Shown here: positions 5,656-53,808 of the stretch, piece after piece
Position numbering within the stretch: position 1 is the stretch's first letter
Layout of the letters: each line of letters begins with the position of its first letter
IMG/VR virus record: IMGVR_UViG_3300032194_000381
Location: 1-64,000 of that record
DNA length: 64,000 nt
Direction: 5' to 3' (one strand)
Source of the DNA: a virus
The notes under the pieces: generated by a model
Database searches by the model: none
Seen by the model: only the letters and a program-made list of their open reading frames with translations
What the model was told of the DNA's origin: nothing
Made by a program: the position numbers and the translations under genes

Positions 5656-6146
5656 CACGTTCAACTAATGAACAACTCGAGGCACGCGTGGAGGAGGCGG
5701 CAAACCTTCTCTCGGAGGGCTGGCCGGGCCGACGCATCGTCAAGGAACTGGCGGACAAGTACGACGTATCGCCGCAGGCGGCACGCACCTATGTCCGTCG
5801 CGGCCGTGAGCTACTGGTTGAAGCAGTGGCTCCACAGGATCGTGCATTCATGTTTGCCCAGGTCCTGGCGGGGCTCCAGCAAGATCGTCTGGATGCAAAG
5901 GAGGCTGGCAACATCTCTGCTCAAGTCGGCGCCTCCAAGGCGATGGTGAATCACCTGAAGCAGATCGCACACATCGATCCGATGCGTGACTGGGAGCAAG
6001 CCTTTGTTGAAGCTGCGGCTTCTGCATCTACCGGCAAGATCCCGAAGATCCGTGTAAATAAACAGGGACAAGAGCTTGCGATGCAGCAAGCAATGGACAA
6101 CCTAGGCAAACGCACCGATCAATTTATCGAGGGCTTCCATGACTAA
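5652..6146 (+). CDS. HTH protein, possible small terminase-like
   Basis: 164 residues from a GTG. Residues 20-55 (GWPGRRIVKELADKYDVSP) form a helix-turn-helix of the kind found at the N-terminus of phage terminase small subunits, followed by long helices and an acidic C-terminus. A large terminase is not adjacent, so the assignment is only structural analogy; a regulator is equally possible. Confidence 0.5.
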   Translation: MTRSTNEQLEARVEEAANLLSEGWPGRRIVKELADKYDVSPQAARTYVRRGRELLVEAVAPQDRAFMFAQVLAGLQQDRLDAKEAGNISAQVGASKAMVNHLKQIAHIDPMRDWEQAFVEAAASASTGKIPKIRVNKQGQELAMQQAMDNLGKRTDQFIEGFHD

Positions 6147-31784: not shown

Positions 31785-31994
31785 ATGGAACACATCAAAA
31801 CTTTCCCGAAAGGTTCCACTGTTGTGTTACTCAATCGAGGGTTCAATCGCAAGGAATACAGAACATGTTCTCCAGGAGGAGGTTTGTGTACCTACAACGC
31901 ATGTATTGACCGAGCTATGAACTTTGCTCAGGTATATGAAGACTATTACAACCACAAGCCCAGCAAAACGTTCGATTTTGATATCAATTTATAG
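31785..31994 (+). CDS. Small Cys-containing protein, 69 aa
   Basis: Starts MEHIKTFPKGSTVVL; three Cys (TCSPGGGLCTYNACID) in a short turn may bind metal or pair. Function unknown. Confidence 0.6.
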   Translation: MEHIKTFPKGSTVVLLNRGFNRKEYRTCSPGGGLCTYNACIDRAMNFAQVYEDYYNHKPSKTFDFDINL

Positions 31995-32112
31995 AGAGGG
32001 GAGGCGCGAGAGAGTCCGAAGAGCGCTCGAAACCCACTGCGGCACAATGGTTTTGGTCGGTGGTCTACCAAACACTATTTTAGAGCCGGCTTTTCATTTA
32101 GACGTATAGGAA

Positions 32113-32166
32113 GGGGGTCTAGGTGAGTGTGAGATAAAAAATGAACGCACAATGACCTAGGCCCCC
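32113..32166. promoter_or_regulatory. Long hairpin before the double-HNH gene
   Basis: GGGGGTCTAGGT (32113-32124) pairs over all 12 bases with ACCTAGGCCCCC (32155-32166), one pair being G-U; an inner GTGTG/CGCAC stem is possible. No T-run follows on the plus strand. It lies in a 216-base gap without genes. It may be a leader structure or small RNA. Confidence 0.55.
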
Positions 32167-32210
32167 TCTCTATAGAAAGAAGTAAAAAGGACGTTCTAAA
32201 ATCATGTCTG

Positions 32211-33425
32211 GTGTTCCACGGCAAACTCGTTGACGCAATGGGGGTTTCACCTTACCGTTCTGGTCAAACCCTGACTCCCCTAATGAAAACCCTCGAATTC
32301 TTCCGCGACAACGGCCTGATCGCTCCTGATGCAGTCGTCTTCGCGAAGGCATTTCAAGTTTTCATGCGGTTCGCTGGTAAGGGCGCCTGTTGGGACCTGA
32401 AGAAGTCAAGGCACCGAATCTTCTCTGGCTTCATCAACAGCAAACGCAACCATCTGTTTTACAAAACGATGGACGCCAGGCCTTTCTTGTTGGCGATGAT
32501 TGGTCAGTTTCCTGAAGCAGGTAAATCTGTGATCGTCAGGAGGCATACTTGTGTCTGTAAATACTGCTTGAATCCGACGCACTACTACTACGGGACGAAA
32601 GCTGACGTTCGCATGGAAACAAACCAAAGAAACGGAGATGTGCTTACGCCGGAACTCGTCGATCTAATTAGAGGAGCTGACGAAGGTCTCTCGAGTAAGG
32701 CAGTATCAAAGCGTTTTAATGTTTCCTACCAAAGGGTGCGGAAAATCCGTTTAGGGCAAACTTTTGAGGCCGTGCAGGACCAGACGGATGCACCTACCCT
32801 TCGGGAGGGTTGGAACACGCTCGAAAAGGTTCTCCATCACCTTGCTTCGAGTCATCCCCAAGAAGTCCGTCGTTATGAGCTCGACTTCCACATGACAAGC
32901 GAAATGGAGTGCCCCTGGCACCGCAACGGGACCAAGGAACACAAAGGCCGGTTCGGGCACATGGGTGAGTGCCTGGACTGCCTCGAGGAGCTCAAGCAGG
33001 GCAAGTGCACTGTCGACGTCACTCAGTTCGACTATCGCTGGTACTGGACCGTAAAGCGCTTCTGGGACCAGGTTGATGTTCGTGGGGAAGACGAGTGTTG
33101 GCCCTGGCTAGGGGCCACGAAGAAAGGAGCGTCTGAGTCAGTCGCTTACTGTCCATCACCGGTCCACTCTGGCGCCACTCAATCAGCGATGCGGGTTGCG
33201 TTCTGGCTGAGTCGAGGTTTTGTAGGCAAGTACAGGATTCACACCAGGAAAACATGTGAAAAGTTCTGCTGTAATCCACTGCACTTAGAAGCACGTGGAC
33301 TTGACGATGTACCTGTGCCTTCTAAAATTGAGAACATTCAGTTGAACTATGTCAACATCTTCGAGCACTTCAAAAAAGCCGGCATCCAAGACGGCGATGA
33401 TAGTCCCGAGTCACTACCATCTTGA
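32211..33425 (+). CDS. Double HNH-like/HTH protein
   Basis: 404 residues from GTG; the ATG at 32238 is in frame as an alternative. Residues about 58-130 end in RHTCVCKYCLNPTHYYYGT, and about 290-390 end in IHTRKTCEKFCCNPLHLE: both follow the HNH_3 pattern H-x-C...C-x-NPxHL of phage homing-type nucleases. Between them lie an HTH (GLSSKAVSKRFNVSYQRVRK, residues 159-178) and a Cys/His cluster (CPWHRNG...CLDCLEEL). The HNH catalytic His positions look altered, so it may be a DNA-binding regulator rather than an active nuclease. Confidence 0.65.
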   Translation: MFHGKLVDAMGVSPYRSGQTLTPLMKTLEFFRDNGLIAPDAVVFAKAFQVFMRFAGKGACWDLKKSRHRIFSGFINSKRNHLFYKTMDARPFLLAMIGQFPEAGKSVIVRRHTCVCKYCLNPTHYYYGTKADVRMETNQRNGDVLTPELVDLIRGADEGLSSKAVSKRFNVSYQRVRKIRLGQTFEAVQDQTDAPTLREGWNTLEKVLHHLASSHPQEVRRYELDFHMTSEMECPWHRNGTKEHKGRFGHMGECLDCLEELKQGKCTVDVTQFDYRWYWTVKRFWDQVDVRGEDECWPWLGATKKGASESVAYCPSPVHSGATQSAMRVAFWLSRGFVGKYRIHTRKTCEKFCCNPLHLEARGLDDVPVPSKIENIQLNYVNIFEHFKKAGIQDGDDSPESLPS

Positions 33426-35127: not shown

Positions 35128-35517
35128 ATGCGGGGCACCAGTGACTCCCACAATGATGATGACTGTCGCCAGCAGCAGCTCAGCGTAAGTGATAGGCCGA
35201 CGCATGGTGAAAAATATCCTTTCATAGAAGAGTTTAGCGAACTCATACAAGAGCTGTCCACAAAGGAGATCCTCACGCTTCTGACAAATCAGCAGAGAAA
35301 CCTCGCCAAAGCCTTATGGGAAGCTGAAAATTACGGAGGCGACATCGAAAAGTGTAAGAAGAGGCTGGTGGAAACACATGGACGGGACTGGATGAAGACA
35401 ATAAAATTCAAAGAGCATTTCGCTCCGATCCGTTCTTATTACGAGCTGGTTCTAATTCTTGAGCATCAACGCCAATGGGACGAATACAGAAAAACAGCTA
35501 AGATTTGTCAAGACTAA
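35128..35517 (+). CDS. Unknown protein, 129 aa
   Basis: Starts MRGTSDSHNDDDCRQ; the first 25 residues look disordered and the true start may be later. The rest is helical (LSTKEILTLLTNQQRNLAKAL). Overlaps the next frame slightly. Function unknown. Confidence 0.55.
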   Translation: MRGTSDSHNDDDCRQQQLSVSDRPTHGEKYPFIEEFSELIQELSTKEILTLLTNQQRNLAKALWEAENYGGDIEKCKKRLVETHGRDWMKTIKFKEHFAPIRSYYELVLILEHQRQWDEYRKTAKICQD

Positions 35518-35525
35518 GTTCTCTA

Positions 35526-36128
35526 ATGGAAGAAACCACCGGAGAGGACTGGCTTGATGTCTTATCGCGTACGGAGTTCGAACCGGATGAAGCTTCAACT
35601 AATTCCTACCAGAGCTACCGTTTCGTCGATTTAGATATAAGTCAGGTAACGGTAGAGAATTACAAAGACACCCTCGTAACGTCACTGGCTGAACAGGTGG
35701 AGATGTTCATTCCACCCTCAGGAAGCTTTGAAACTCCTGACCTGAGAAGGTATCTGGAGCTTGTGTGCGGCTACGAAACGAGCACATCTGACCTGGTCTT
35801 GGGTCTATCCCTGGCTGATCAAATCAGGATCACGTTCAGTGATATGAAAATCAGCACCATCTGCGATCGGTATCCAGACATCAATCTGGCAGAGAAGCGT
35901 CGATACCGCTGCGTGGCAGAGTACTTGATCCGTCAAGGGGAATTGACCAAACTACGGGATGAAAACGGTAAACTGATCAAGAAGATTGGCAACATGCAGA
36001 AAGCTGTTGTGTTGTACAAACCGCTCCCCAAATTACTGGAAACCCTAAAACGCTCCGGGCTTACTCATTTTATAAAGCTTAAGGAGCAGCCCAAAACTGA
36101 AGAGGCAAAGGCCTCTAATATTAATTGA
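35526..36128 (+). CDS. Unknown protein, 200 aa
   Basis: The ATG at 35526 (MEETTGEDWLDVLSR) is chosen over a TTG at 35505. Acidic N-terminus, middle with LADQIRITFSDMKISTI and a C-terminal helical part with KLRDENGKLIKKIGN. The neighbour at 36141 also begins with a GETEE-type acidic helix. No family recognised. Confidence 0.6.
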   Translation: MEETTGEDWLDVLSRTEFEPDEASTNSYQSYRFVDLDISQVTVENYKDTLVTSLAEQVEMFIPPSGSFETPDLRRYLELVCGYETSTSDLVLGLSLADQIRITFSDMKISTICDRYPDINLAEKRRYRCVAEYLIRQGELTKLRDENGKLIKKIGNMQKAVVLYKPLPKLLETLKRSGLTHFIKLKEQPKTEEAKASNIN

Positions 36129-36140
36129 ATCTGAACAGCC

Positions 36141-36539
36141 ATGACAAGCCGTAGAAACAAACTCCTGACCCGTCTTCTTCAGAACACCACTGGCGAAACC
36201 GAAGAGACGCTCATGAAACTCAGCATCGAGCGTATCTGCGCTGACATGTGCGAGTTTTATACCAAGTTCTACGCCTTAGAAGGCCCTGGTGTACTTGTAT
36301 TCAAGCCTCAGGCAGAGGATAAAGATAGTATGTTCTATCTCTGCGTCGACGCGTTGATCAACGCCTTGGATGATTACCGCGATCAGGAGAGTGTCGCAGA
36401 GGTGTTCCAATCAGCCATCCGTCGTTCGGAACAGATCGACCCGACCAAAGAGTCCTTGTTTCTCATCCAAGATGAGAATGAGCTTGCCTTGGTTCACTAC
36501 AAGCATGACGAAGAGAACTCCAGCTTTTTGATGCTTTGA
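36141..36539 (+). CDS. Unknown protein, 132 aa
   Basis: Starts MTSRRNKLLTRLLQN; helical, acidic, ends HDEENSSFLML. Overlaps the methyltransferase-like gene by 4 bases. Function unknown. Confidence 0.6.
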   Translation: MTSRRNKLLTRLLQNTTGETEETLMKLSIERICADMCEFYTKFYALEGPGVLVFKPQAEDKDSMFYLCVDALINALDDYRDQESVAEVFQSAIRRSEQIDPTKESLFLIQDENELALVHYKHDEENSSFLML

Positions 36540-37162
36540 AACGCGGAGCCAACAACTGGTTAAGCCTGCGGAACATCTATGGCAAGATCGAACATATTGA
36601 GGAGGACTGGCTGACGCCAGCTGAATATCTTCCTTTCATCGACGCACTGCTTGGAGAGATTGACTTAGACCCGTGTTCAAACCACGACGCTAATCTTCAA
36701 GGTCTCCAAGCGAAAAAAATCTATACCCTTAAAGAAGACGGGCTCAACATTGAGACACCCTGGACGGGAGTGACTTACCTGTTCCCGCCTACTTACGGAC
36801 GATGCACTTGGAGCATTAAGAGAGGGACCTGGCGTTGGAGCAAGCGTGGAGGAAAAGTCTCAAAAGCCCCCTCTGTAATCTGGTTTAGACGTCTTGTAAA
36901 AGAATGGAAGCTCAGGAACATACCTGAAGCTTTGTTTTACACCACGTATCCAGAGATGTTGAGGATCTGTCCGGAGGTCTGGGACTTCCCGATGTGCTTC
37001 CCCACGGATAGGCCAAACTTGATTCACGGTAAAAAATATTTCACTAATAAAAACCCTATGCACTGGGGTTATTTCGTTTACCTGCCCAGGTTATCTCTCG
37101 GTTTCAAGCAGACCGAACGCTTCGAAGAGGTGTTCTCGGAGCTTGGACGAGTTATATGTTAG
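36536..37162 (+). CDS. Dam-like (PF05869-type) methyltransferase, degenerate motif
   Basis: 208 residues from TTG. It follows the phage N6-adenine methyltransferase layout: DWLTPAEYLPFIDALLG, IDLDPCSNHDAN, KEDGLNIETPW, then the catalytic position. Where active enzymes have (N/D)PP(Y/W), this protein has LFPPT (residues 82-86), so the first residue is Phe rather than Asn or Asp. It may be inactive or use a changed site. Such proteins would modify phage DNA against restriction. Confidence 0.65.
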   Translation: MKRGANNWLSLRNIYGKIEHIEEDWLTPAEYLPFIDALLGEIDLDPCSNHDANLQGLQAKKIYTLKEDGLNIETPWTGVTYLFPPTYGRCTWSIKRGTWRWSKRGGKVSKAPSVIWFRRLVKEWKLRNIPEALFYTTYPEMLRICPEVWDFPMCFPTDRPNLIHGKKYFTNKNPMHWGYFVYLPRLSLGFKQTERFEEVFSELGRVIC

Positions 37163-41514: not shown

Positions 41515-41599
41515 GGGAGCGTGGCGGAATCGGTAGACGCACCAGACTTAAAATCTGTTGGCCATTACGGTCGTGAGGGTTCAAGTCCCTCTGCTCCTA
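41515..41599 (+). tRNA. tRNA-Leu (anticodon TAA)
   Basis: A type II tRNA with a long variable arm. Acceptor GGGAGCG pairs with TGCTCCT; D-arm GGCGGAATCGGTAGACGC is typical of tRNA-Leu; the anticodon loop CTTAAAA gives TAA; T-arm GAGGGTTCAAGTCCCTC is perfect. The outer anticodon-stem pair (C with T) is mismatched. No CCA is encoded. Confidence 0.93.
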
Positions 41600-44322: not shown

Positions 44323-44778
44323 ATGGACCGCTTACATGAAGGCATAGCCCTGGGATTTGTCCTTGGAATCCTTCATGGGTTGATGCAACCTGGGTATTCA
44401 GTGCCGGTGGTCCCGAACTTTACTCAGGGAAGCTTGACGTCAAAGACAGAAACAACCTCTGTTGTGACTGAGACAATAAACTCGATGGACTACAACACTG
44501 GCTACCAATATTCCGTAACAGGCACTAATATACAGAACACAGGCAACAGTATTGCTCCCTCCACAACTTCAGGCAATAGCAATACTATTAACGGCGTCAC
44601 CAGTACATGGACAACACTGGATTCCGCAAACAAGCCCAGCTGGTCGATCGTCGACAATACGAAAGGCTTTCAGTTTACGGAGACGCTGCAAGCTCCGGGG
44701 CTTGCGAATCACACGATTATAAACAGAACTACGGAGATAAGAAGCGTCACGGAAAGTACTTCCATCTTCTCACAGTAG
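44323..44778 (+). CDS. Secreted or anchored cyanophage protein
   Basis: 151 residues. An N-terminal hydrophobic helix (GIALGFVLGILHGLMQ) precedes a Ser/Thr/Asn-rich beta region. It starts at the base after the previous stop. Same gene run as its neighbours. Function unknown. Confidence 0.65.
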   Translation: MDRLHEGIALGFVLGILHGLMQPGYSVPVVPNFTQGSLTSKTETTSVVTETINSMDYNTGYQYSVTGTNIQNTGNSIAPSTTSGNSNTINGVTSTWTTLDSANKPSWSIVDNTKGFQFTETLQAPGLANHTIINRTTEIRSVTESTSIFSQ

Positions 44779-45608
44779 GTGTACTTTCTCTATTTGCTAA
44801 TTCTTCGTTGGCTGGCGATGTCGGTGGCGTTAGTGCTACTGCTAACCCTATTGCAAATAGTAGTGGGAGCGTGACAAATCAGGCGATCCAGGTACTTCAG
44901 GGTCCTTATATCACTAACACCTACGGGAATGGCATTCAATGTCAAGGTCCAACCTTGAATGTGACGCCGTTTATGACAAGAACCGGCTCGTTCCAGCTCC
45001 CTTACGAAGATTACTATAACGATCCTGTTTATGATACAAGCGACCTAAATGATGACGGAGTTATTGATAATCCAGGCAAGATTTTATACCACCGTCCAAT
45101 TAGAACTGGACAAAAAAGTAACTATAGTTGGAACGGAGGATTATCTGCAACCTTATCAATACCTTTAGATGGAGGTTTGCAAGCTCGATGTAAACGTGCA
45201 GCAGAAGCACAGATAGCATTGCAAGAGCAGATGCTTGCTAATCGAAGATTGGATTTTGAGATCGCTAGATTAAAAAATTGTGGAGAATTAGCTAAGGCCG
45301 GAATTACTTTTAGGCCAGGTAGTCAATTCGCAAAAGTCTGTGCTGACATCGTCGTGAAGATGCCAAATGAAACAGTGGCACCACACGTTCACCCTATTTC
45401 TTTAACGCCCGCCGCAACTCACGAAGAGCACGATTCCGATCACGCTGGGCAAGACGTCTCTCTTGAAGTGATTCCATTTTCTGGGGCTTCCCACGCAACG
45501 CAGAAATCTTCTTCATTGCCTTCTTCACAGCAGGTTTCACCAGCTTTAGAAGCAAGTCGGCAAGCGGCTTTGCTAGGAGGGCCGCTGAGGTCGCGACAAC
45601 AGCAATAG
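44607..45608 (+). CDS. Secreted cyanophage protein with problematic start
   Basis: The recognisable part begins with a signal peptide near 44750 (FHLLTVGVLSLFANSSLA), then GDVGGVSATANPIANSSG, NGIQCQGPTLNVTP, DYYNDPVYDT, GGLSATLSIPLDGGL and IARLKNCGELAKAG. This matches a cyanophage protein well. No ATG, GTG or TTG lies near the signal peptide; the only in-frame ATG (44607) would add 48 residues overlapping the previous gene. A shift from that gene or a non-standard start is possible. The last 215 bases overlap a minus-strand gene. Confidence 0.65.
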   Translation: MDNTGFRKQAQLVDRRQYERLSVYGDAASSGACESHDYKQNYGDKKRHGKYFHLLTVGVLSLFANSSLAGDVGGVSATANPIANSSGSVTNQAIQVLQGPYITNTYGNGIQCQGPTLNVTPFMTRTGSFQLPYEDYYNDPVYDTSDLNDDGVIDNPGKILYHRPIRTGQKSNYSWNGGLSATLSIPLDGGLQARCKRAAEAQIALQEQMLANRRLDFEIARLKNCGELAKAGITFRPGSQFAKVCADIVVKMPNETVAPHVHPISLTPAATHEEHDSDHAGQDVSLEVIPFSGASHATQKSSSLPSSQQVSPALEASRQAALLGGPLRSRQQQ

Positions 45609-46604: not shown

Positions 46605-47687
46605 TCAAAGTTCGGCGGCAAATTCGCCTTGATTCATGAAAATAACAAAAGAATCAGAGGTGGCCGCCCCCGTAGCATCCATCACAAAATTAATGCCATT
46701 TTTGTTCAATGTGGCGTTGCTTGAAAGGGTGCTACTACCAAAGCTTCCAGTGTTTTCCCTATAGCTAAGAGAGCCATAAGTGGGCGAAGGCGTAGCTCTC
46801 ATTTCAGGAATAAATGGTACAAATTGACTGCAAATTTCGTTACTAATTAGAAATTGTGCAGCCATATATCTTGGACTGCTTATGTGATAATACCTTTTAC
46901 ATCTAAAAAGCTCATCGGCGTAGCTTCTGTGCTCAAACGCTGTGGCGACGTTGCCTACTTCTAGTTGTGCTCCGGTCAAGTAAAATTCGTTAGAGGTGCT
47001 GTCGGCGATATTTATAGTCCCCACAGCACGATTTGCATTAGTCACAGCTGCAAACCCACTTGTGTTTAGTGTTCCACTTGTAAAGTCAGAGCCGCCACCT
47101 AACCAGTGATAGACAGCTAATTCAGAGGACTCGTCGTTGGCGAGAGCAGAAGCAGTATCCCCATCAATAGTGACTTCTTTATGCTCCCAGGTGTTAACAG
47201 TATTGACTGTATAAGTAGCGGAGACTTGCCTAGAATTACCGTCTTGAAAAAATTCCAAGATGTGAGTACCTGTCTTCGGTGATCTGACCCAAAACGAATA
47301 CGTTAATTGTTTAGCAGAAGATGAACCGAAGTCTAAGTGCTGAAGATTTTGTCCTTCAATTTTTTGTCCTAATAAAATAAAATCACCCGCTGCTGGAGAT
47401 GCATCCGCAGTCGTGCAATCAACCTTTATGGAATTTGAAAAACCGGCGGGAGCTTCAGTGCTTCGGCTAATACTGAAGCTGCCCATTGTATTGATAATAA
47501 ATTGGAACCTATCGAGCACATATTGAGTTACTGTGGCCCCCGTTACATCCGAGCGTTGCCGGACTTGCATCGCACCATTGATTAACAGGTTGCGATTACT
47601 CAGCTGACCACCGTTAATATCCGTAATCTTGGCATTAACACCGCCGCCACTCGGTGATTCGATATTCGTTACCTTGAGCGTCGACAT
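46605..47687 (-). CDS. Tail fibre/receptor-binding protein, copy 3
   Basis: 360 residues. An N-terminal ITDINGGQLSNRNLLINGAM leads to QVRQR, then a carbohydrate-binding-like beta domain and TAFEHRSYADELFRCKRYY, ending FAAEL. Two other proteins (50695, 52726) share the RNLxINGD, EHRSxxDELxRCxRYY and AEL pieces; the C-terminal tip differs in each. It should form part of the host-recognition apparatus. Confidence 0.85.
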   Translation of the reverse strand: MSTLKVTNIESPSGGGVNAKITDINGGQLSNRNLLINGAMQVRQRSDVTGATVTQYVLDRFQFIINTMGSFSISRSTEAPAGFSNSIKVDCTTADASPAAGDFILLGQKIEGQNLQHLDFGSSSAKQLTYSFWVRSPKTGTHILEFFQDGNSRQVSATYTVNTVNTWEHKEVTIDGDTASALANDESSELAVYHWLGGGSDFTSGTLNTSGFAAVTNANRAVGTINIADSTSNEFYLTGAQLEVGNVATAFEHRSYADELFRCKRYYHISSPRYMAAQFLISNEICSQFVPFIPEMRATPSPTYGSLSYRENTGSFGSSTLSSNATLNKNGINFVMDATGAATSDSFVIFMNQGEFAAEL

Positions 47688-50518: not shown

Positions 50519-50698
50519 TTACTCCTCTCCAGAGTCGGCAGGTTCCGGGGTGTTGCCTTCAGCGACCCACTCAAGGTACTCCTGATAGTCGGTATTGTCG
50601 GGCGCCATAGGAATTAGCGCACCATCCTCTTTACGAAGAATGCAAGGTGCTTCTTGGTTGAGCATGGAATCCCAGCACTTTTTATAGGTGTAAGTCAT
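50519..50698 (-). CDS. Tail-fibre companion protein, copy 2
   Basis: 59 residues. Ends YQEYLEWVAEGNTPEPADS, as copies 1 and 3. Overlaps the fibre stop by 4 bases. Probably assembles with the 50695 fibre. Confidence 0.7.
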   Translation of the reverse strand: MTYTYKKCWDSMLNQEAPCILRKEDGALIPMAPDNTDYQEYLEWVAEGNTPEPADSGEE

Positions 50699-52332
50699 AA
50701 TTCTGCTGCAGCTTTTAAAATACCTGTTTGAGTGCCATTGTACACAGCTATCGCGCGGCCTATGGTAGTACTACCTGTAGCAACAGAAGCGTCAACTTCC
50801 ACGCTGTCTATCGTCGGATATAAGACACTAAAACCAGTAAAAGTTCCTACACCATCCCCGTCATACCAATCGAATGAATTACTAGAAGTAATTGTAGGGG
50901 CTGCCCGCATTGTTACTGGTAAAGTTAAACCTAGCCTGTTAAGAGCAGTGGTGCTACCTCCAACTCCACGCAATCTTGGCTTGCTAAATTGTTGATAATA
51001 CCTTTGACACCTAGCAAGCTCATCGCTAATGCTTCTGTGCTCAAACGGTGTCGCCTTTTCACCAAGTTCATACTGAAAGCCAGTAAATTGAATGTAGTTA
51101 CTGGTAGAACCCATGAGATTTATTTGATTTGTACTATTGACGCGGGATGCTCCATCAGTATTCCAAGAGGTAGTGTTTTGCCCTGAACTGCTAAAGTTTG
51201 ATCCAGCGTCCAGCCAGATCTGAAATTCAATACCAGTAGTATTGTCGTCGTCAATAGCTGTAGCAGTATTGCCAATGAAGGTAATTGTTTTGTATTCCCA
51301 AGTATTGACAGACTGGATCTCTACACTTCCTGCAAGATAAGGTGGTCCTGTGTTTACTTCTGAAGTTACTGATAAATTACCAGTCATATTTGATTTGACA
51401 TAAAAAGACAAAGTTGTAGTCTTTGCGTCAGATGTACCGTAATTTAGATGCTGAAGGTCTTGCCCCTCAATGTTGTATTGAAGAATGTTGAAATTACCGG
51501 CGGAAGTCGGGGTACTAGCAGTTGTAGTTGCAACTTTAATTGATTTATTAAAACCAGCTGGTCCGTCTGATTCTTGCGTAACAGTAAACGCTCCACCCGA
51601 ATCTTTGCTAAGTCTGAATCTGTCTACAGTGTAGACTGCGACAGCACCTGTGCCAATAGCAAAAGTTGTACCTCTTTGACTGATTCGACAGTCTCCGTTA
51701 ATAATAAGATTTCTGCTACTCAACGCACCAGCAGTTGGGAAAGTTTCCCCGTGAATCGTCGTAGGCTCTAGATCACCATCAAGAGTAATCTTGTCATTAC
51801 CTGCATCGACGACAAATAAGTTTGCTTTTGTATCACCCTCTACACGGAAATCAACATTATCGCCATCTTCATTGAAGACAATTGCAGTAGGTCCAAAATC
51901 AGCGATCTTATTGTTGTTCGAGCTGACAGATGTGATCCCAGTACCGCCTCGGAATAGGCCAGTATCAAGGTCCTGGTTGAAGGTAATCGAGGGCGTGCCG
52001 GCATCCCCATCAGGGAATGCATGGCCTGCTGTCACATAGTCGGCGCCAGCAAGAATGACACCGAAGAAGGACTGACCGGATGCTGGTGCCGCACTGAAGA
52101 CGATGTTCGTACCAGTCAACTGGAAACCGTTAGTGCCTGTTCCATCCGGTTCCTGGATGACACCACCAACAGAAATCAGGCAGTTCTCCGAAGCAATCGG
52201 GAAGGGAACTGGTGAGACACCACCAACTTGAAGGGCGAACGAAGTCGTAGATCCATCAAAGCTTGAGCTAATATCATCAATGCTTTGATACGTACTCTGA
52301 GCGATCTGCGGGCTCTGGCCGATATATCCCAT
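50695..52332 (-). CDS. Long tail fibre/receptor-binding protein, copy 2
   Basis: 545 residues. A docking N-terminus (DDISSSFDGSTTSFALQVGG), a stem (GTPSITFNQDLDTGLFRGGT), then the shared module SRNLIINGDCRISQR, a beta-sandwich domain, and ATPFEHRSISDELARCQRYY, ending GILKAAAEL. The extra N-terminal stem sets it apart from the 360-residue copies, suggesting that docking parts and binding parts are swapped between fibres. Confidence 0.85.
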   Translation of the reverse strand: MGYIGQSPQIAQSTYQSIDDISSSFDGSTTSFALQVGGVSPVPFPIASENCLISVGGVIQEPDGTGTNGFQLTGTNIVFSAAPASGQSFFGVILAGADYVTAGHAFPDGDAGTPSITFNQDLDTGLFRGGTGITSVSSNNNKIADFGPTAIVFNEDGDNVDFRVEGDTKANLFVVDAGNDKITLDGDLEPTTIHGETFPTAGALSSRNLIINGDCRISQRGTTFAIGTGAVAVYTVDRFRLSKDSGGAFTVTQESDGPAGFNKSIKVATTTASTPTSAGNFNILQYNIEGQDLQHLNYGTSDAKTTTLSFYVKSNMTGNLSVTSEVNTGPPYLAGSVEIQSVNTWEYKTITFIGNTATAIDDDNTTGIEFQIWLDAGSNFSSSGQNTTSWNTDGASRVNSTNQINLMGSTSNYIQFTGFQYELGEKATPFEHRSISDELARCQRYYQQFSKPRLRGVGGSTTALNRLGLTLPVTMRAAPTITSSNSFDWYDGDGVGTFTGFSVLYPTIDSVEVDASVATGSTTIGRAIAVYNGTQTGILKAAAEL

Positions 52333-52345
52333 GATGTAGATCTAT

Positions 52346-52729
52346 TTATTCATCTATTGTATTAGGGCCTGACGTAGAAGGCTTACGCGGCCAGACGACT
52401 GATTCCGGACCGGTCTCTGCATAGGTGGTCGGAATGTCGCGAAGGGTCTGACGATAAGCAGCCCATTGAGCCTGATCAACAGTGCAGCCAGGGATCATTG
52501 TCCAGTCTGAATCACGGAGGAGTTCATCACGTTTTAGACGTACATGCTCCCAAGTGTTAGTATCTTCAGCAGGTTCCGGGGTGTTGCCTTCAGCGACCCA
52601 CTCAAGGTATTCCTGATAGTCGCGATTACCCACATCGTATGGAAGCCAAATGATGCTCCCATCATCATTGATTTTTTTGATGACGACAGGATCGCCGCCA
52701 TAAGGAGGGTTCGCAAGTTGATAGTTCAT
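52346..52729 (-). CDS. Fused tail-fibre companion protein, copy 1
   Basis: 127 residues. The first half carries YQEYLEWVAEGNTPEPA like the other companions, and the second half (HVRLKRDELLRDSDWTMIPG, YRQTLRDIPT, WPRKPS) is the chaperone-like part seen at 47730. So this gene fuses two domains that are separate elsewhere. Confidence 0.75.
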   Translation of the reverse strand: MNYQLANPPYGGDPVVIKKINDDGSIIWLPYDVGNRDYQEYLEWVAEGNTPEPAEDTNTWEHVRLKRDELLRDSDWTMIPGCTVDQAQWAAYRQTLRDIPTTYAETGPESVVWPRKPSTSGPNTIDE

Positions 52730-53808
52730 AGTTCAGCGCTAGCTTCAAGAATAGGTGCACCTGAAATTGAGGCTGCAAATAGTCCACCTGTCATGCCGGT
52801 GTCAGCGGTTGTGAGATTTGCACCAATTTGGGTTGAAGAAACACTAAATACAGAATTTAACCCAGTTACGTTAACTGCAGCACGGCCAAATTGAGCAACG
52901 GTTCCAGGTGAAGATCTCAGACTACTAGGAGTCGTTGCCGTAGCCCGCTTCTCTACTTTAAAGAAAAAGACAACATCAACATCAGAGGTGTTGACCGTGC
53001 GTCCTGTGCAGTTACCCAATAGCTCGTAATACCTTAGGCACCTAGCAAGCTCATCGCCATAGCTCCTGTGCTCAAACGGTGTCGCGGTGTTACCGACTTC
53101 GATTTGGACGCCCGTGATTTGCCAAGAAGCGTTTAGGGTTTCATTCAAATTAACGGTAGCTGATGTACCTCTTTTGTAGGTAGAGCCCCACGTCGTTCCT
53201 GCAGTGCCGTGATCATTGGATCCAGTTCCAAGAGCCATTTGAACACCGAGCCCGATCCCATTAGTTGTGTTCCACGTTCCAGAAGTGTCACCAGGGACAG
53301 TGATCGTTTTACGCACCCAAGTGCTTACTTCACTGGCTGCAATGGTGTAGGTTGTTAAAAAAGCTCGGTCAACGCCTGCGTTGAAAAAACTAATTGGATA
53401 AGTTCCGGTTACGCTTGACTTTACGTAAAAAGACATAGTAAAGGCTTTAGCGTCTGCCGTCCCAAACCCCATTTGAGCCCAGTTGTAACCCTCAATGCGA
53501 TGGTCAGCTCCTACGAACCGGTCATCACCAGATGATGTTTCAGTAGTTGTGACAGTTGTTTTGAGAGAGTGCTTAAAACCTGCAGGACTATCTGAAACTT
53601 GTTGGATAGTCGCAGCAAGCGTAGACATGTCATGCTTTTCATGAAGGAATCTGTCCACGCTATAAGCGGTTCCAGCTGAGTAAGAAATACTTGATCCACT
53701 ATTTCTCTGATCTATACACATATCACCATTGATAACCAGATTCCGATTACCAAGCTTGTCAGCAACGCTATCACCAAGCCGCTGACCATCGATATCAGTT
53801 AATGGCAT
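52726..53808 (-). CDS. Tail fibre/receptor-binding protein, copy 1
   Basis: 360 residues. NRNLVINGDMCIDQRNSGSS, then a beta-sandwich domain and TPFEHRSYGDELARCLRYY, ending ILEASAEL. The N-terminus (MPLTDIDGQRLGDSV) is short. Overlaps its companion by 4 bases. Paralogue of 46605 and 50695. Confidence 0.85.
   Translation of the reverse strand: MPLTDIDGQRLGDSVADKLGNRNLVINGDMCIDQRNSGSSISYSAGTAYSVDRFLHEKHDMSTLAATIQQVSDSPAGFKHSLKTTVTTTETSSGDDRFVGADHRIEGYNWAQMGFGTADAKAFTMSFYVKSSVTGTYPISFFNAGVDRAFLTTYTIAASEVSTWVRKTITVPGDTSGTWNTTNGIGLGVQMALGTGSNDHGTAGTTWGSTYKRGTSATVNLNETLNASWQITGVQIEVGNTATPFEHRSYGDELARCLRYYELLGNCTGRTVNTSDVDVVFFFKVEKRATATTPSSLRSSPGTVAQFGRAAVNVTGLNSVFSVSSTQIGANLTTADTGMTGGLFAASISGAPILEASAEL

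Follow-up and report, generated by a model that had tools for sequence, protein, structure and literature searches.

The 64-kb window of viral DNA analyzed here, taken from an IMG/VR virus record of 67,676 bases, encodes a protein in which two HNH-like domains flank a helix-turn-helix and then a putative CxxH/CxxC zinc cluster, and whose gene is preceded by a large interrupted palindrome (Table 1). We lean towards the view that this protein is a non-cutting DNA-binding regulator which derives from a nuclease and acts on its own palindrome. The original prediction had proposed a homing nuclease that became a transcription factor. Its first half, a nuclease that stopped cutting, is well supported by matches to HNH nucleases in PHROG and Foldseek searches, by the retention of zinc-ligand positions and loss of the catalytic His and Asn, and by strong purifying selection and a fixed syntenic position. 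The second half is plausible rather than established, and becomes likelier because palindrome and promoter are both conserved at the gene itself.

The reading frame predicted at 32211-33425 (+) exists, but the GTG at 32211 is ruled out as its start. We take the ATG at 32283 instead, because homologues align from there and because the 72 bases of 32211-32282 carry the promoter. All residue numbers refer to the protein that begins at this ATG. As for the source of the DNA, the gene at 44607-45608 of the window finds its matches almost exclusively in records of cyanophages (443 records). Roseophages and S-EIV1 are among those with the nearest relatives of the family A DNA polymerase, and in S-EIV1 the PDDEXK-like gene, the primase and the double-HNH gene all have counterparts, in the same order as in the window. 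Because of these matches, we assign the window, on its gene sequences and their order, to an S-EIV1-like cyanophage lineage. The window also contains a tRNA-Leu (TAA) at 41515-41599 (+) that adjoins a 2OG-Fe(II) oxygenase gene, and three tail-fibre-like genes on the minus strand between 46605 and 53808 (46605-47687, 50695-52332 and 52726-53808), all of which match the same C-terminal part of phrog_4492.

Table 1 Features of the double HNH-like gene and of the DNA upstream of it
Feature	Position in window	Strand	Remarks
Whole interrupted palindrome, ~160 bp	32060-32220	.	Axis 32139.5; 52/76 complementary positions
Left outer half-site TCTAAAATAGTGTTTGGT	32067-32084	-	Inverted copy of 32195-32212, axis 32139.5
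Hairpin, palindrome core	32105-32174	.	Arms of 20 nt, 32105-32124 / 32155-32174; folding z -6.6
Right outer half-site TCTAAAATCATGTCTGGT	32195-32212	+	Just upstream of the -35
Sigma70-like promoter (predicted)	32230-32258	+	TTGACG-N17-TACCGT; 24 nt before the ATG
Double HNH-like protein gene	32283-33425	+	380 aa, ATG start; frame and start kept in 80 homologues
N-terminal HNH-like domain	32364-32636	+	Residues 28-118; phrog_1872 E 0.006 (weak alone)
Helix-turn-helix	32637-32762	+	Residues about 119-160; HTH_23/HTH_28; helices 123-130, 138-145, 149-156 (AlphaFold)
CPWH...H...CLDC probable zinc cluster	32889-33032	+	C210, H213, H220, C230, C233
C-terminal HNH-like domain	33033-33320	+	Residues 251-346; phrog_1872 E 2.5e-9 alone

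Both HNH-type motifs proved to be real. The whole protein matched phrog_1872 with an E-value of 2e-13 over residues 257-336, the C-terminal motif matched HNH endonucleases of PHROG 1872, 826, 3593 and 4842 (E 2e-13 to 3e-7), and phrog_1872 was matched by 18 of 18 diverse family members searched as whole proteins. The N- and C-terminal motifs also align with each other in register, with an hhalign score of 21.9 vs 19.9 for the best of 60 column-shuffled controls. Their earlier assignment to the HNH_3 type fell away, as Pfam HNH_3 gave no match even at E<=10, and the half-sites are separated by about 235 residues (H100 to H334) instead of the 270 first estimated. The predicted helix-turn-helix between the HNH parts was recovered through Pfam HTH_23/HTH_28 matches down to 1.5e-4 in relatives. 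In the CxxH/CxxC cluster, also predicted, C210, H220, C230 and C233 are invariant and H213 occurs in 78 of 81 proteins.

Structure prediction agreed with this assignment in part. From 13 sequences, AlphaFold gave a poor model (pLDDT 53), and the one used here was built from an alignment of 43 sequences (pLDDT 78). At a pTM of 0.52, this model places strands at 83-86 and 101-104 and a helix at 106-116 in the N domain, and only two strands in the C domain, where the beta-hairpin is not followed by a helix; hairpin and helix together are clear in the N domain only. Foldseek searches against viral models returned HNH nucleases (E 9e-6 to 1e-3), which supports the fold family, but nothing significant was found against the PDB. 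Sequence searches of the PDB with whole-protein and separate domain profiles gave chance matches only.

The conservation of individual residues was counted over 81 aligned family proteins. C36, C90, C95, N97, P98 and H100 of the N domain are invariant, as are C272, C325, C329, C330, N331, P332 and H334 of the C domain. Among them are the candidate zinc ligands, C36/C90/C95/H100 and C272/C325/C329 or C330/H334, at which zinc would be bound if these domains resemble His-Me-finger enzymes. Compared with the pattern of five HNH proteins of other phages (HxC-x4-C-x-NPxHL-xx-G-xxx-DN), the catalytic residues are altered in both copies, as had been suspected. The general-base His of the N domain is present in 20 of the 81 sequences, including that of the window (H88), and is mostly replaced by Ser, Gly or Ala in the others, while that of the C domain is absent at the aligned position, where the window has K. 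The metal-binding Asn has become Val (V109) in 80 of 81 N domains, and the equivalent position 343 of the C domain is variable, with Asn in a single sequence.

By analogy with His-Me-finger enzymes, the loss of the general-base His and the metal-binding Asn would abolish DNA cleavage in this family. It is distinctly unlikely that the protein instead still acts as a nuclease or nickase, with an active site rebuilt from other residues (e.g., the invariant H220, H295, E285 and D245), and cuts the palindrome as a cruciform. Such an activity would fit with several polar residues that are invariant but lie outside the zinc sites, with H88 in the window, and with the fact that His-Me enzymes include cruciform resolvases such as endonuclease VII, but it conflicts with the loss of His and Asn from both domains of most members and with the missing helix in the model of the C domain.

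The family is conserved and syntenic, and the search for homologues that the original prediction had proposed provided the alignment of 81 proteins. At least 135 homologues were found in IMG/VR. None was found in GTDB genomes, and therefore no host-gene or prophage origin is seen; the phage-isolate collection held no close homologue, only weak HNH matches with S-EIV1 among them, and literature searches found no paper on the family. The dN/dS values lie mostly at 0.02-0.13 across the gene and are lowest in the C-terminal HNH (mostly 0.006-0.05). Among the IMG/VR loci listed, the order of downstream neighbors is identical. When loci were anchored on the neighbor at 35505-36128, the gene was present at the same site in 48 of the 48 loci with enough upstream sequence, and no empty site was seen. 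Furthermore, its pairwise distances follow those of three neighbors (r 0.80-0.85). Collectively, these observations describe a fixed core gene under strong purifying selection, not a mobile homing gene, and support vertical inheritance.

A position beside replication genes is the usual setting of homing endonuclease genes, and intact homologous phage HNH genes do adjoin replication genes. Yet the strength of purifying selection, the lack of losses in the 48 loci, the fixed position and the co-divergence with neighbors make it very improbable that an ordinary homing endonuclease gene of the free-standing type happens to be degenerating here. In the same neighborhood, a relative of Dam-like DNA methyltransferases is conserved at 36536-37162 (+; Pfam E 0.005, PHROG 111 E 5e-8). 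One contig of the same lineage (L197, 3039-4123) carries a copy of the double-HNH gene whose frame is broken within the N domain.

A hairpin had been predicted upstream of the gene and is indeed present. What is new is that it forms the core of a palindrome that is conserved at the same place throughout the family and, less strongly, in S-EIV1. No other long palindrome of the window is as strong (the runner-up in 64 kb scores 38), and it also ranks first in all eleven relatives that were scanned, with a single tie; the palindrome of S-EIV1 only ties for the top score. In IMG/VR relatives, it always lies 139-148 bp before the ATG, and the hairpin folds with z < -2 at the equivalent place in 32 of 35 relatives despite differing sequences. 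The axis was picked on offsets 4-40 only, in 29 representatives. At offsets 65-80, outside the choice of axis, 66% of positions are complementary vs 26.4% (sd of mean 2.1) at random axes. The arms match better within species than between species (0/5000 permutations), a concerted evolution that is also explicable by quasi-palindrome correction.

Of the 64 occurrences of the arm motif TTTGG[GC]TGTT in 1.23 Mb, 55 fall at this locus, and hardly any copies of the half-site or hairpin were found at other genes or promoters in the loci. As the half-site motif is nearly absent elsewhere, there is no sign of a wider regulon. In many relatives, the hairpin (TAGGTA..GTGTATA..ACAGTC..CCTA) is present a second time about 220 bp further upstream, with 16 matches near -400 (for example at -376 in L075 and at -390 in L040 and L045, relative to the gene start). 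Also upstream of the palindrome is a 69-aa ORF at 31785-31994 (+), which has no family match in Pfam or PHROG and is conserved in part of the family and undetected in others.

The very stable and conserved RNA fold (z -6.6) could point to an RNA element, namely a terminator or RNase III site in the transcript that arrives from upstream, unrelated to the protein. We find this improbable. Some compensatory changes are present, although RNA covariation alone is weak because stems change mostly between subgroups; meanwhile, no U-run follows the hairpin, the symmetry extends to the half-site beside the -35, and the palindrome also occurs in S-EIV1, where the upstream gene differs.

The predicted promoter is likewise conserved. 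Over 78 relatives, the best-match score has a mean of 9.19 vs 7.81 (sd 0.77) in shuffled sequences, and the spacer measures 17 nt in 61 of them. Their element, TTGACA/TTGCCA-N17-TAnnnT, is mostly located 21-27 nt before the ATG. The right half-site is centered some 61 bp upstream of where transcription is predicted to start, and a position near -61 is typical of class I activators and usable for repression too. A nine-codon ATG frame at 32203-32232 (+) ends in the -35 region and is probably due to chance.

The features expected of a transcription factor are present, namely the matches to helix-turn-helix profiles and an operator-like symmetric site at the gene's own promoter. A promoter, a palindrome and a DNA-binding protein, one of each, are always found together, and therefore the simplest model is self-regulation. 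That the gene lies beside the palindrome is not in itself proof that the protein binds it.

The main rival to this model is that the protein is a replication initiator or origin-binding protein, and that the palindrome, whose loop is A/T-rich, serves as an origin or forms a cruciform beside the initiator gene. We regard this as unlikely. The primase-helicase gene is located about 2.2 kb upstream, each genome has a single strong palindrome, the gene is present in all anchored loci, and a DNA-level structure is kept while the sequence diverges, all of which would suit an initiator. On the other hand, there is no GC-skew turning point at 32 kb and no iterons were seen, and the conserved promoter at the palindrome arm suggests transcription.

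The phage HNH endonucleases of PHROG 1872/826, such as Corynebacterium phage phi674 gp43 and StAB gp46, display the same CW...R...HxC-x4-C-x-NPxHL...DN module, and phi674-type proteins have a C-terminal segment resembling a helix-turn-helix, as in the N-terminal half of the double-HNH protein. These enzymes have a single HNH module that retains both His and Asn, whereas the protein described here has two that lack the full catalytic pair, with a putative zinc cluster between them. The C...CxxxxC...H pattern of both HNH domains presumably corresponds to the zinc site of I-PpoI, and we take the lost residues to be the equivalents of its catalytic His98 and Asn119. The likeness to such His-Cys box enzymes stops short of a significant sequence match to any PDB chain; Pfam PF05551 was matched weakly in three members (best E 0.018).

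Homing-nuclease parts have been turned to DNA binding elsewhere. The passage of PMC4999995 that cites Grishin 2001 describes the Smad MH1 domain as a degraded homing endonuclease. The MH1 domain is alike in keeping the His-Me nuclease fold for DNA binding after catalysis was lost, but is eukaryotic and a single domain. In phage biology, homing-nuclease parts repress transcription in CapR of PLE satellites and in the autorepression of I-TevI, and CapR corresponds to the part of T5orf172 homing genes that binds DNA through zinc (PMC10448857). Unlike in CapR, the HNH domains themselves are kept in the double-HNH protein, though decayed.

The homologue in Synechococcus phage S-EIV1 (AHV82135, KJ410740), at about 23-24% identity, has the zinc cluster and a C-terminal HNH without catalytic His, and lies downstream of the primase, but it has neither the N-terminal HNH nor the helix-turn-helix. 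Because of this, an HNH-HTH unit seems to have been fused with a zinc-HNH unit in the marine form, unless the first half disappeared from S-EIV1. Between a glycosyltransferase gene and the S-EIV1 homologue lie two inverted repeats, nested one in the other (29 nt at 79% and 13 nt at 100%). The annotated CDS of this homologue in KJ410740 (6082-6522) probably starts too late, since the open frame extends to an ATG at 5845 and takes in the zinc cluster.

Based on these findings, we propose that the protein consists of two decayed homing-endonuclease domains of the zinc-containing, His-Me-finger HNH type, between which lie a helix-turn-helix and an additional zinc cluster. The zinc-ligand positions would have been retained to hold a DNA-binding scaffold from which the general-base His and metal-binding Asn are gone. 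The gene would be expressed from its own promoter, of the host sigma70 type, and the protein most likely binds the palindrome, probably as a two-fold-symmetric complex in which a dimer may read the arms. A half-site abuts the -35, and such binding would control expression of the gene itself, by activation or repression, and perhaps that of divergent neighbors too. A broader possibility, which we put forward tentatively, is a class of two-headed, catalytically dead HNH regulators or initiators that read a genome-unique giant palindrome, perhaps as a cruciform, set an early transcription or replication switch, and became fixed in S-EIV1-like cyanophages.

If true, this would be a clear case from a prokaryotic virus of HNH domains turned into a sequence reader, in parallel to the animal Smad MH1, and one for which numerous natural variants and a defined candidate target are available. 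S-EIV1-like cyanophages made up about 3% of the cyanophage signal in one ocean survey (PMC5332604), and the protein and its palindrome would offer a first handle on gene control in these viruses.
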